A stretch of DNA of 41,388 nt, from IMG/VR virus record IMGVR_UViG_3300044982_000030, positions 1 through 41,388 of that record. One strand, given 5' to 3'. The position numbers were made by a program, and so were the translations under genes. The notes below the pieces were generated by a model. It did no database searches. It was not told the DNA's origin and worked only from the letters and a program-made list of their open reading frames with translations. The DNA is from a virus. Numbering within the stretch: the first letter of the stretch is position 1; every line of letters starts with the position of its first letter. Positions 33,827 through 40,232 of the stretch are shown here, piece by piece.

Positions 33827-34416
33827 CCCCCAATTCATCTGGTGGAGGGGCGGCGTTGGAGACGACCCTGCCGCCGTTGCCTGCTGACGGTGGCATCGGC
33901 CCCACCGACGACGAGTTTGGCTACACCGCCGACCAAATGCGCGCCTACGCCTTGTCCGCCATCCGCACTCTGGAAGAGAGGGTGGCGAGCTTGGAGGCGG
34001 CGTTGGGCGAGATGACCGAAGACCGCGACCGCCTCGACGCGCTGGTGAACTCGCCTGAGACGCGCGATTTCCTGACCGGCGTCCGCAACGAAGTCGCGCA
34101 CCAGATCGAGCGCTGGGGCACCGTCCACGACCGCGCGAAGGAGCCGGCGGACTGGTTCTGGCTCGTCGGCTACCTGGGCGGCAAGGCGCTGTCCGCGCAC
34201 GTCAAGGGCGACACCGAGAAGGCAATGCACCACTGCATCAGCACGTCGGCCGCGCTCGCGAACTGGCATGCGCACATCGCCCACGGCTCCGGCCTGATGC
34301 AGCCCGGATCGTCCGACCTGCAGGACTTCCTGCGCGAGACGTTCGGCTCGAATTTCATCGAGTACCAGACCGACCGAGCCGCTCTCTCCAAGACCGCCCA
34401 GCCGGGCATTGAGTGA
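33823..34416 (+). CDS. Conserved phage protein, 197 aa
   Basis: ATG 33823 overlaps the previous stop. Residues about 45-72 are a coiled coil (AIRTLEERVASLEAALGEM). The C-terminal domain (about 85-170) contains HQIERWGTVHDRAKEPADWF, then GYLGGKALSAHVKGDTEKAM, a pattern I recall from conserved phage proteins of unknown function and somewhat like MazG-type helical bundles, though the acidic MazG motif is not evident. Function unassigned. Confidence 0.65.
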   Translation: MTPNSSGGGAALETTLPPLPADGGIGPTDDEFGYTADQMRAYALSAIRTLEERVASLEAALGEMTEDRDRLDALVNSPETRDFLTGVRNEVAHQIERWGTVHDRAKEPADWFWLVGYLGGKALSAHVKGDTEKAMHHCISTSAALANWHAHIAHGSGLMQPGSSDLQDFLRETFGSNFIEYQTDRAALSKTAQPGIE

Positions 34417-34425
34417 AGGAATGAT

Positions 34426-35454
34426 GTGGCGGCGTACTACAACGAGATTGACCCGTACGCCGCGGCTTGGTTGCGCAACCTGATCGACGCTGGGCACATC
34501 GCGCCTGGCGCGGTCGATGAACGGAGCATCGAGGATGTTTTCCCCGACGACCTGCGAGGATTCACGCAGTGCCATTTCTTCGCCGGCATCGGCGTCTGGA
34601 GCTACGCGCTTCGTCGCGCCGGTTGGAGCGATGACCGACCTGTTTGGACGGGTTCCTGTCCGTGCCAACCTTTCAGCGACGCAGGCAAAGGCGCTGGGTT
34701 TGCTGACGAGCGGCACCTCTGGCCGGCGTTCTTCCACCTCATCGGCCACCATCGCCCTGCAGTCATCTTTGGAGAGCAGGTTGCGAGCAAGGACGCAATG
34801 CCTTGGCTCGACCTTGTTCAAGATGACCTGGAAGCCGTGGGTTACTCCTTCGGGGCGATCCCGTTTCCGTCTGCGGGCGTCGGTGCCCCGCATATCCGTG
34901 ACCGCCTGTATTGGGTGGCCGACGAGCCGAGCAACCGACGGGGAAAAGAACGTGCAGACGCTGGAAGGGTCGCTGCGAGAAATCGCACGCAAGGGTGGCC
35001 CGCAGGACTTGAATCAGGCCGCATGTCTGGCCTCTTGGGCAACGCCGGCAACGAGGGATTGGCACTCTGCCAGCGGTTCCCCGGAATTCCTAGCGGGTCG
35101 GGCGGAGCAGACGCGGGGCAAGCCCCTGTCGGAGCAGGCGTTCACGCTGGCGAGCTGGCCGACGCCGATGGCAGGCACGCCGTCTCAGAATGGCAACAAC
35201 GCAGCGGGGAACAACGACAGCAGCCGGAAGACGGTGGCTTTGTGTCTACCCCGGGAGCCGGCCCGACTAACGGCTTCTGGCGCGCTGCTGACTGGCTCCG
35301 ATGCCTCGATGACCGGTGGCGGCCAGTTGAACCCAGCTCATTCCCGCTGGCTCATGGCGCTCCCGCCCGAATGGGACGCCTGCGCGCCTATGGCAACGCG
35401 ATCAACGCGGAAGCCGCTGTCGCCTGGATCAACGCCTACCTGACCGCCTCCTAA
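34426..35454 (+). CDS. DNA (cytosine-5) methyltransferase
   Basis: 342 residues from GTG 34426. Motif [11 protein letters not shown] (about 50-59), catalytic motif [11 protein letters not shown] (about 75-83, Cys in PCQ), motif VI GEQV (about 116-119), motif [12 protein letters not shown] (about 158-165), and motif IX-X region [14 protein letters not shown] (about 318-331). A long, Gly/Gln/Arg-rich variable stretch lies where the target-recognition domain should be (about 170-280). It would methylate phage DNA to evade restriction. A second long gene (34631-35443) is nested in another frame. Confidence 0.85.
34631..35443 (+). CDS. Nested protein overlapping the methyltransferase gene, 270 aa
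   Basis: An open frame of 270 residues from ATG 34631 (GGAG just upstream), wholly inside the methyltransferase gene in another frame. It begins [20 protein letters not shown] and has a [20 protein letters not shown] block. Repeated W-x-T-P-x-x-x-D units ([17 protein letters not shown]) and an ending like [20 protein letters not shown] match a protein family I recall as encoded with phage cytosine methyltransferases. Function unknown. Both frames appear to be under protein constraint. Confidence 0.75.
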
Positions 35455-35488: not shown

Positions 35489-35683
35489 ATGGAAAACGCT
35501 TTTGACCAGATGCGCGATGCCGTCGCGCGAGCCAAGCAGGTGAACGAAGCCGTCGACTCGCAAGTCAATGCGCTGGTCGACCTGCTCTCGGGGCGCCTGG
35601 AGCGTGTCGCGCCCTGGAAGCTGGCGCGCCTGAAGATCGCCCTGCAGCGCTTCAATGCGCGCACCGGCGAGTGGAAAGACTAA
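35489..35683 (+). CDS. Small helical protein, 64 aa
   Basis: ATG 35489 with GGGAAGA upstream, after the methyltransferase gene. Almost entirely helical, with a leucine-rich middle (VNALVDLLSGRLERV) and a second helix (ARLKIALQRFNARTG). It may be a small oligomeric regulatory protein. No family recognised. Confidence 0.6.
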   Translation: MENAFDQMRDAVARAKQVNEAVDSQVNALVDLLSGRLERVAPWKLARLKIALQRFNARTGEWKD

Positions 35684-35708
35684 CCGCCATTCAAGCAGGA
35701 AGACCAGC

Positions 35709-36146
35709 ATGACAACCGAGAAACTGCTCCCGTGCCCGTTCTGCGGCTGCAAGGCCGTGTGGTTCAAGACGGGCCGCGACATTGGCATCGAGTGCGAGGA
35801 CGGGTTCGACTGCCCTGGCCGCGCTCAGACGAACGTCTACGAGCCGCAGTACCGACAAGACGTGATCGCCCAATGGAATCGCCGCGTGCTCCCCACCGGC
35901 GAGGACATCCGCGACCTTGCCGACCTTGAAGCCGGTCTCCGCGCCAGCAGTGCGCCAGCCCAGGGGATGGTGCTGGTGCCGCGCGAGTTGGTCGCGTTCC
36001 TCGATGGCGAATCGGCCATTGATGGCGTCTGGTTCGGCGAACGCCACCCCGATCACAAAGGCCTGTTCTGGTGGCGAAAAGCACTCATGCAGTGCGCCGC
36101 ATCCCATGGCGCCGCTTCTGTTGCGGCTGGGGAGATGCAGCCGTGA
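35709..36146 (+). CDS. Lar-like restriction alleviation protein with extension, 145 aa
   Basis: ATG 35709 after AGGAAG. The first 60 residues fit the Lar family: LLPCPFCGCKAVWF (Cys-x2-Cys), a second Cys pair (GIECEDGFDCPG) and the closing WNRR. Lar of Rac prophage modulates EcoKI activity, and phage relatives are common. Residues 70-145 are an extension found with variable content in phage proteins. The stop overlaps the next GTG. Confidence 0.7.
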   Translation: MTTEKLLPCPFCGCKAVWFKTGRDIGIECEDGFDCPGRAQTNVYEPQYRQDVIAQWNRRVLPTGEDIRDLADLEAGLRASSAPAQGMVLVPRELVAFLDGESAIDGVWFGERHPDHKGLFWWRKALMQCAASHGAASVAAGEMQP

Positions 36147-38068: not shown

Positions 38069-38503
38069 ATGCCGGCCAAGCCCAAGCCACCCCTCGAGTC
38101 CGAAGTTCAGCGAGAGATCCTGCTCGCCTCTCCGTCGCGCGACTGCAGACTCCTACGCAACAATGTCGGGGCGTTCGAAGACAAGACCGGCCGTTGGGTG
38201 CACTACGGCGTGGGTGGCAATGGCGGCTCCGACACCCTCGGGCCCACGACCATCACCATCACCACTGAGATGGTGGGCCACCAGGTCGCCGTCTTTACCG
38301 CCATCGAGTGCAAGAGAGTAGGCAAGCGCGCGACTGAAGAGCAAGATGCCTTCCTCGCCATGGTGCGCTCTCGCGGCGGCATCGGTGCCGTCTGCCACTC
38401 CGTCGAAGAATTCCAAGGAGCCATTGATGCCTACTGCGCTGCCCTCCGAGGCGCCAGCCCCCCGTCCGTCAATGTCCCCGCCAGCACCGACGCTCGTTCA
38501 TAG
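38069..38503 (+). CDS. VRR-NUC domain nuclease
   Basis: 144 residues from ATG 38069 (AAGGA upstream). The active site is visible: GVGGNGGSDTLG with D55, then the strand VAVFTAIECK giving E80-x-K82, and a following ATEEQDAFL helix. This is the PD-(D/E)XK layout of VRR-NUC proteins, which cut branched or damaged DNA and are common beside phage primases and helicases. The gene overlaps the VapE-like gene by 77 bases in a different frame. Confidence 0.8.
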   Translation: MPAKPKPPLESEVQREILLASPSRDCRLLRNNVGAFEDKTGRWVHYGVGGNGGSDTLGPTTITITTEMVGHQVAVFTAIECKRVGKRATEEQDAFLAMVRSRGGIGAVCHSVEEFQGAIDAYCAALRGASPPSVNVPASTDARS

Positions 38504-40232
38504 CGTCGAGGAGCTGCCGCCCGTCGACCTGTCGCCCGCCATCGAGCGGCCACAAGCACAGCTGGTCATCGTCACGTCGGCCTCGGATAGAGACCGGCTG
38601 CGCTTGGTGCTGCCTGACTTGTGCGCGATCGTCTGGGACACCACTCGCATCGACGTCGACCTCGCCGAGCTACAGGCCAGGGAAGGGCGCCGAGCATTCA
38701 TCTGGCTCGCTCGAGAGAAGACCACCGACTGGCTGGGCTTCCAACTCACCGAGATGGGCTACGCCGTCAACGTCATCAAGAAGCTGGCCGGCAACAAGCA
38801 CGACCAGGTCATGGCGCAGTCCGGCTCCGAGATCCAGTCCTGGGTCAAGGCGCACATGAACGCGTGGGTGGCGCCGGCGATCGATGAGCCGGTGGACGTC
38901 ATCCCTGACCCCGTCGTCGAGCAGCCGCCAGCGCCTGAGCCGGCCGCGGTGATGGCACATGAGGAGGCCGCCGATGCGCTGGCTGCCCTCGCGCGCCAGC
39001 AGGGCATCCCTGCCATTGGCAAGCGCATGCGCATCGACGACTGGACCGGCATGGGGCTGCACATCAGTCAGGGCAAGCCAACGCCCAACGTGTCCAACGT
39101 GTCGATGCTGTTCGACCACATCAAGCCCGGCGAGATCTGGTACGACACGTTCCGTCAGTCCATCATGACCGTGGACGGACCCGGCAGGGCCGCCAGGCGA
39201 TGGACAGATGCTGACGACATCCGGTTGACCATCGAGGTGCAGCGCAACTGCGGGATGGTCAAGGTGGCCAAGGGGACCGTCACCGACGCTGTGGTTGAGT
39301 TTGCCATGCGCAACCTGCGCAACGAACTGCGTGAGTACGTCATGGATTTGCAGTGGGATGGCATCAGCCGCATCGACAAGGCGTTTGAGGATTTGTTCGG
39401 CGTCCAACGCAGCGATTACAACCGCGACGTCAGCCGGAATTTCTTCCGCTCCGCCGTTGCCCGCGCGCTCTGGCCTGGCTGTAAGGTCGACACGATGATC
39501 GTCCTGGAGGGTGAGCAGGGCATCGGCAAGTCGACCGTCCTGGAGAAGCTGGGCGGCCCGTGGTACTCGATCATGCGAGACAGCCCAGACTCCAAGGACT
39601 TCGCCATCGTGCTGGCTGGCAAGTGGATCGTGGAGATCGCCGAGCTCGACGTCTTCCTGCGCTCAAGCAGCAGCTCGAGCAAGCGTGCGCTCAGCACCGC
39701 CGTTGACACCTACCGTCCGCCCTACGGAAAACACTCGCTCGACCATCCTCGATCGTCGATCTTCGCTGGCTCAGTCAACCGCAAGGACTGGAACCGCGAT
39801 GCGACTGGGGCACGCCGCTACTGGCCGGTGGACTGCAAGTGGGCCAAACCTGAGATCGCGGCGCGCTGGCGAGACCAATATTTCGCCGAGGCCTTCCACC
39901 TGATGATTCACGAGACGCCGCCTGGGCAGAATCCCGACTGGTGGAAGTTCACCCAGCCCGACCAGGTTCTCGCCGAGCAGGAGGCTCGCTACATGGTCGA
40001 CGACTGGGAGGCGACGATCTCGTTCTACCTCAAGGGCAAGAGCAAGGTCGCGCCGAACCAGATATACGACGAGGTCCTGATGATCGACATCAAGGATCGA
40101 AACCACCGCACTCACGGCGTTCGCGTGGCCGACATCATGAGGCGCCTCGGATGGGAGTCCAAGTCGCTGTACACCAAGGCGACGGGGCAGAAGCGCTTCT
40201 GGATCAACAAGGACACGTGGACGGGCGGCTAG
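38427..40232 (+). CDS. VapE-like primase/helicase (virulence-associated E family)
   Basis: 601 residues from ATG 38427 (AAGGAG 7-8 bases upstream). The first about 190 residues are a helical/alpha-beta region that may hold a degenerate TOPRIM-like fold. The ATPase core has Walker A LEGEQGIGKST (about 360-370), Walker B-like WIVEIAELD (about 400-408), a DHPRSSIFAGSVN segment, and RRYWPVDC (about 466-473) with the sensor-like Arg. Family members act as replicative helicase/primase in mobile elements. With no polymerase gene visible, this is the likely replication initiator. It ends before the terminator hairpin. Confidence 0.85.
   Translation: MPTALPSEAPAPRPSMSPPAPTLVHSVEELPPVDLSPAIERPQAQLVIVTSASDRDRLRLVLPDLCAIVWDTTRIDVDLAELQAREGRRAFIWLAREKTTDWLGFQLTEMGYAVNVIKKLAGNKHDQVMAQSGSEIQSWVKAHMNAWVAPAIDEPVDVIPDPVVEQPPAPEPAAVMAHEEAADALAALARQQGIPAIGKRMRIDDWTGMGLHISQGKPTPNVSNVSMLFDHIKPGEIWYDTFRQSIMTVDGPGRAARRWTDADDIRLTIEVQRNCGMVKVAKGTVTDAVVEFAMRNLRNELREYVMDLQWDGISRIDKAFEDLFGVQRSDYNRDVSRNFFRSAVARALWPGCKVDTMIVLEGEQGIGKSTVLEKLGGPWYSIMRDSPDSKDFAIVLAGKWIVEIAELDVFLRSSSSSSKRALSTAVDTYRPPYGKHSLDHPRSSIFAGSVNRKDWNRDATGARRYWPVDCKWAKPEIAARWRDQYFAEAFHLMIHETPPGQNPDWWKFTQPDQVLAEQEARYMVDDWEATISFYLKGKSKVAPNQIYDEVLMIDIKDRNHRTHGVRVADIMRRLGWESKSLYTKATGQKRFWINKDTWTGG

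Follow-up and report, generated by a model that had tools for sequence, protein, structure and literature searches.

Gene content and features of the locus

The window analyzed here is the whole of the 41,388-base virus record IMGVR_UViG_3300044982_000030. At positions 34426–35454 it carries the gene for a predicted C5-cytosine DNA methyltransferase catalytic chain (alpha); a second gene (beta) is contained wholly within alpha and is read in the +1 frame. An initial annotation from the sequence alone had described two overlapping open frames here, the second ending at 35443, and both are open as described. The features discussed below are as follows.

34426..35454, + strand: alpha, predicted C5-cytosine DNA methyltransferase catalytic chain; 342 aa, GTG start; motifs I–VIII and X; phrog_363
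34523..34526, + strand: beta Shine–Dalgarno sequence GGAG, inside the alpha gene, 8 nt 5′ of ATG 34535; selection on its codons
34535..35443, + strand: beta, nested gene, +1 relative to alpha; 302 aa; phrog_1008 and phrog_31772; open and conserved in relatives
34573..34593, + strand: alpha motif I, HFFAGIG (AdoMet site); near-invariant columns in alignment A2
34631..34633, + strand: possible secondary beta start, the ATG of the initial annotation (270 aa); ATG in only 60/127 loci, Shine–Dalgarno sequence rare
34651..34677, + strand: alpha motif IV with catalytic Cys80, which is invariant in A2; aligns with the PCQ motif of M.HhaI
34768..34785, + strand: alpha motif VI, FGEQVA; Glu117 invariant
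34888..34920, + strand: alpha motif VIII, the final alpha segment matched by M.HhaI; conserved in A2
34916..34945, + strand: beta W-x-TP repeat 1; Trp near-invariant
34927..35265, + strand: alpha passenger stretch, codons 168–280; weakly conserved in alpha, predicted disorder, substitutions at beta third positions
35036..35065, + strand: beta W-x-TP repeat 2; conserved among relatives
35156..35185, + strand: beta W-x-TP repeat 3; conserved among relatives
35318..35386, + strand: beta motif IX equivalent; most positions 97–100% conserved across 127 loci; chained link to canonical motif IX
35377..35418, + strand: motif X, in the alpha frame; R320, Y322, G323, N324 and A325 invariant

Elsewhere in the window, positions 38346–40232 encode a VapE-like primase/helicase-type protein (PF05272, E = 1.5e-61).

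The phrog_363 match spans all of alpha (E = 5e-87), and that to Pfam PF00145 only residues 75–167 (E = 1e-12); the alpha profile also matches M.HhaI (E = 5e-15), with the match ending at motif VIII. These hits bear out the canonical methyltransferase motifs that had initially been read in this frame. Motif I, the catalytic PCQ (motif IV), the motif VI Glu, and RxR (motif VIII) are all present, with invariant columns in A2; motif VI reads GEQV, not ENV, and motif X is present as RLRAYGNAI. A motif IX pattern was found in the alpha frame of 0/127 family members and in the beta frame of 113/127. The arrangement of a single-chain enzyme, with a target-recognition domain (TRD) and motif IX between motifs VIII and X of the alpha frame, was not found, and alpha lacks both motif IX and a conserved TRD. 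AlphaFold models residues 1–167 and the C-terminus mostly with confidence, while residues 180–274 are predicted to be disordered (pLDDT about 38).

Beta belongs to two families, phrog_1008 (E about 1e-35) and phrog_31772 (E = 1e-32), that carry the label "DNA methyltransferase." That label seems to have been borrowed from the overlapping alpha; beta carries no catalytic motifs. Neither Pfam nor a sequence search of the PDB returned a match to beta. An AlphaFold model of beta alone was poor (pLDDT 59, pTM 0.27), and a fold search with that model recovered only noise; beta may need alpha to fold. The W-x-TP-x-x-x-D repeats noted in the initial annotation are present and conserved, and the C-terminus holds a near-invariant block corresponding to motif IX. 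The same nested gene is annotated in Escherichia phage K1ind3 (ORF29, "Mte8-like") and in Paenibacillus phage Bloom (gp57), with no function or mechanism given there.

Conservation of both reading frames

Relatives were fetched from viral contigs with either the alpha or the beta protein as query. All 160 of these loci carry both frames, and beta is in the +1 frame of alpha each time. With bacterial genomes and deeper relatives added, both frames are kept in the same register in 340/340 loci checked at that stage; neither an alpha without beta nor a beta without alpha was seen among them, whichever protein served as query. Searches of phage records with tblastn identified beta in 197 and alpha in 397. 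Candidates for a stand-alone beta (Porphyromonas phage AFR5B1, Deep1-GF2-KM23-C739, and Komagataeibacter phage phiKX1) were rejected, as the other frame in each holds an unannotated or damaged alpha.

Among 127 non-redundant complete loci, the beta frame is open over alpha codons 69–330 in 124, as against about 10 expected after synonymous resampling of the alpha codons; for the window alone, 0/400 synonymous resamplings were open in the beta frame. The remaining four frames are open in 0, 9, 0, and 0 of the 127 loci. Synonymous resampling and the codon-position tests described below together rule out a chance open frame. A 385-aa open frame also spans the methyltransferase on the minus strand (33835–34992); it looks like a product of chance, since only 9/127 relatives have an open reverse frame in the overlap.

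A beta broken by stops beside an intact alpha had been named at the outset as the observation that would speak against the nested gene. Among 138 non-redundant loci, only two show a stop in the beta frame, too few to overturn it: a single in-frame stop interrupts conserved beta in L034, and in L071 a stop lies ahead of conserved beta, followed directly by ATG ATG. A third locus of this set, L031, has a stop in the alpha passenger stretch. The single stops in L031 and L034 would be rare cases of sequencing error or decaying copies.

The frame pair is also kept in 6/6 RefSeq E. coli prophage regions (L325–L330), and none of the six has the nested gene annotated. The arrangement occurs in hundreds of phages, and the second gene is nearly always absent from annotations.

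Selection on the two frames

In this overlap geometry, the third position of an alpha codon is the second position of a beta codon, and the first position in alpha is the third in beta. Differences at the three alpha positions (a1/a2/a3) were summed over 50 disjoint pairs of relatives. The part of the gene that is alpha only behaves as an ordinary gene (289/236/995), and change at the third position is reduced over codons 82–167 (468/270/612). The pattern reverses over codons 168–250 (1148/787/792), with a1 exceeding a3 in 37 pairs and falling below it in 7 (p = 5e-6); codons 251–318 lean in the same direction (945/656/763; p = 0.01). Between the window and L002, its nearest relative, 23, 5, and 4 positions (a1, a2, and a3) differ over codons 168–250, and this single pair gives no frame signal over codons 251–312. 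The reversal over codons 168–250 indicates that beta, not alpha, is constrained there, in the region where a methyltransferase TRD would be expected.

Alpha shows synonymous change at 0.78 of expectation over codons 1–60 but only 0.37 over codons 69–167, with a sharp drop near codon 82; the low level over codons 69–167 is a sign of selection on the N-terminal part of beta. The codon-position patterns and this synonymous drop together indicate purifying selection on beta from roughly alpha codon 82 onward, and a middle of alpha that is mostly passenger. The initial annotation had proposed that the overlap covers the poorly conserved target-recognition stretch of the enzyme, with one frame free to vary there and the other constrained. 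Both points hold: the comparison of codon positions it had called for reveals selection in the beta frame, and beta is the constrained partner.

Start site of beta

The beta frame is open upstream as far as ATG 34517. The nested gene had initially been started at 34631 (270 aa); the relatives favor ATG 34535 (302 aa), which is the best-supported start. Alpha codon 37 (Asp) is GAT in 102/123 Asp codons, compared with 28% of Asp codons elsewhere in alpha 1–68, and GAT at this position together with the next G creates the ATG of beta. The codon for alpha Arg33 is AGG in 50/127 loci, compared with 1/463 background Arg codons; AGG here yields AGGAG eight bases 5′ of the beta ATG, and the window has GGAG at 34523–34526. 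ATG 34631 is disfavored as the main start, given its presence in 60/127 loci and the rarity of a Shine–Dalgarno sequence before it. No clear constraint was detected in the first ~40 residues of beta, and some loci probably start beta elsewhere.

Several relatives carry insertions. L334 (1187–3214) has an intein-like insertion exactly at the alpha catalytic Cys (junctions GSCP/CFPEGTLVL and IIVHN/CQPFS), which splits the beta frame; conserved beta picks up again beyond the insertion, at MMNDTSG, which implies an internal start at that point. L248, L054, L063, and L078 (and L080, by hit pattern) have an HNH endonuclease-like ORF after the beta stop, just past motif IX and in the beta frame; alpha is open throughout the inserted ORF and reaches motif X beyond. 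L045 (1405–3126) has an HNH-like ORF inserted after motif VIII, ahead of the recognition region, and an APHIR motif is repeated on either side of it.

Split and single-chain relatives

The catalytic gene of mycobacteriophage Firecracker (L382), and of L390, L391, and L393, ends after motif VIII; LLPTP repeats, a FAEWMMGWPxGW block, and motif X are found in the gene that follows it. In the Firecracker pair gp6/gp5, as in L391 and L393, the TRD, motif IX, and motif X are in the downstream gene; gp5 is a beta homologue, and gp6 and gp5 partly overlap. Six viral contigs (L392, L394, L395, L396, L399, and L400) have alpha and beta fused in frame as one chain, in the order motifs I–VIII, LLPTP repeats, FAEWMMGWP block, and GNGVVPQQA (motif X).

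The direct match of nested beta to canonical motif IX is too weak to be read alone, and the link was therefore drawn through intermediates. In hhalign comparisons, the window beta profile matches L331-type nested beta (99.8%, E = 6e-28), and L331-type beta matches the split and single-chain C-termini (99.3%, E = 1e-20); these C-termini in turn match canonical motifs IX–X (E = 1e-4) in the correct columns. A direct profile comparison of window beta with the split and single-chain C-termini (E = 4e-9) takes in the TWK and WPTP segment without extending to motif IX. The split and single-chain relatives and these chained matches identify beta as the portion of a C5-methyltransferase that holds the target-recognition region and motif IX, read out of frame; it would most likely be the chain that recognizes the target DNA.

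Nested betas are present in phages of Proteobacteria (including N15, epsilon15, and BcepC6B), Paenibacillus, Lactobacillus, Bacteroides, and Porphyromonas, as well as in a marine autographivirus and a T4-like phage. In a quick catalytic-domain tree, with moderate branch supports and a sample fetched with beta queries, the nested, split, and single-chain forms make up one clade (SH-aLRT 100) apart from 26/27 ordinary methyltransferases; the sole ordinary methyltransferase falling within it, L364, is a gappy fragment. The split and single-chain forms are nested among the nested-gene forms in the same tree. This topology suggests that the nesting is old and that the single chains of this group may be later. 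A broader history, for and against which we hold the case about evenly balanced, would make a large, old branch of phage C5-methyltransferases one of interleaved two-frame genes: the recognition half was put in the +1 frame once, and motif X either remained in frame 0 or came back to it; the arrangement persisted in phages of Proteobacteria, Firmicutes, Bacteroidetes, and marine hosts; and a few actinophage lineages later moved to split or single-chain forms.

Interpretation of the locus

Both frames are real and each is under selection; catalytic motifs and motif IX are distributed between them, beta has a start site inside alpha, and beta is homologous to the C-terminal portion of single-chain enzymes. 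The best explanation would be a two-subunit enzyme of the M.EcoHK31I kind: in all likelihood, positions 34426–35454 are one stretch of DNA that encodes, in two frames, the alpha and beta subunits of a C5-cytosine DNA methyltransferase. Alpha, in frame 0, would supply the AdoMet-binding and catalytic domain (motifs I–VIII) and motif X. Beta, in the +1 frame and initiated at its own Shine–Dalgarno sequence and ATG 34535 within alpha, would contribute most of the small domain, namely motif IX and the target-recognition region, in which the W-x-TP repeats lie. A single enzyme is predicted to form from the two chains, both of them required, with beta determining its site specificity. Alpha residues ~168–280 would then serve mostly as a readable, little-constrained bridge that takes the ribosome on to motif X. 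Modification of the phage's own DNA, as protection against host restriction, is the likely role. A Lar-type restriction alleviation protein (PF14354, E = 1.7e-9) is encoded directly 3′ of the methyltransferase, at 35655–36146, making up a small counter-restriction cluster, and its presence agrees with such a role.

It is improbable that beta is instead a separate regulator or partner, controlling activity or expression for example, and not a structural half of the enzyme. A regulator could well have its own start and Shine–Dalgarno sequence and match nothing in Pfam or among solved structures, as beta does; however, the homologues of beta form the C-terminal half of single-chain methyltransferases, fused in frame, and in the split forms they carry motifs IX and X. 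Beta is also never seen without a C5-methyltransferase alpha, which itself lacks motif IX and a conserved TRD. The suggestion in the initial annotation that the nested protein helps or controls the methyltransferase thus stands insofar as the two belong together; the same homology argues against a mere helper or regulator.

We consider it very unlikely that programmed frameshifting, once or twice, yields a single full-length chain instead of or besides two chains. The order of motifs on the DNA is collinear with that of an ordinary methyltransferase gene, and single-chain relatives exist, both as frameshifting would have it; yet selection maintains the internal Shine–Dalgarno sequence and ATG of beta, and a conserved beta segment 5′ of motif VIII, which overlaps alpha, would be missing from the product of a frameshift. 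Moreover, beta resumes only 3′ of the intein in L334. Scarcely credible, finally, is an untranslated beta whose openness and similarity are by-products of the conserved codons of alpha. GC-rich DNA often holds long alternative frames, and the window has many long chance frames, but the excess of open loci over the resampling expectation (124/127 against 10), the selected Shine–Dalgarno sequence and ATG, the retention of beta second positions while alpha first positions vary, and the reading of beta within a single chain in relatives all weigh against this account.

The two-subunit reading bears on how these genes are annotated and used. Phage methyltransferases are usually annotated as one gene; the nested gene is missing in most records viewed, and its protein family is named after the wrong gene. 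As the annotated alpha seems to have no recognition part of its own, cloning or expressing alpha alone is expected to fail or mislead. Naturally split methyltransferases are in demand for targeted DNA methylation (PMC3439449), and the set of loci described here is a supply of them. The nested, partly overlapping, and single-chain forms also offer a natural series for the origin and resolution of long overlapping genes. On the broader history of interleaved genes sketched above, the overlap may oblige the catalytic and specificity halves to be passed on, and swapped, as one unit. New here are the spread and age of the arrangement, the hidden ribosome-binding site, and the largely passenger middle of alpha. 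A search among open-access papers found no description of the phage-wide nested arrangement, and an earlier account may exist.

Comparison with known methyltransferases

The small chain of M.EcoHK31I is reportedly coded within the large one in another frame, and is about 176 aa long. Beta is likewise nested in another frame but is longer at 302 aa. In M.EcoHK31I, motifs I–VIII and X lie in the large subunit and only motif IX in the small one (PMC3404938, citing Lee et al. 1995); judged by that description, alpha and beta have the same split of motifs between chains. The predicted TRD of M.EcoHK31I was put in the large subunit (PMC3404938), whereas the codon evidence here points to beta. No partner restriction enzyme was seen at the phage locus, unlike M.EcoHK31I, and two distant DNA searches of E. 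coli genomes for M.EcoHK31I returned prophage copies only or no match.

M.AquI resembles the present locus in having two chains, with the catalytic half and the TRD half separate. Its small subunit, however, has motifs IX and X, an arrangement found in the Firecracker-type loci and not in the window, where motif X remains in alpha. The single-chain enzymes M.HhaI and M.HaeIII share with alpha a catalytic domain with motifs I–VIII; they differ in that the TRD and motif IX, absent from the conserved sequence of alpha, are here read in the other frame.
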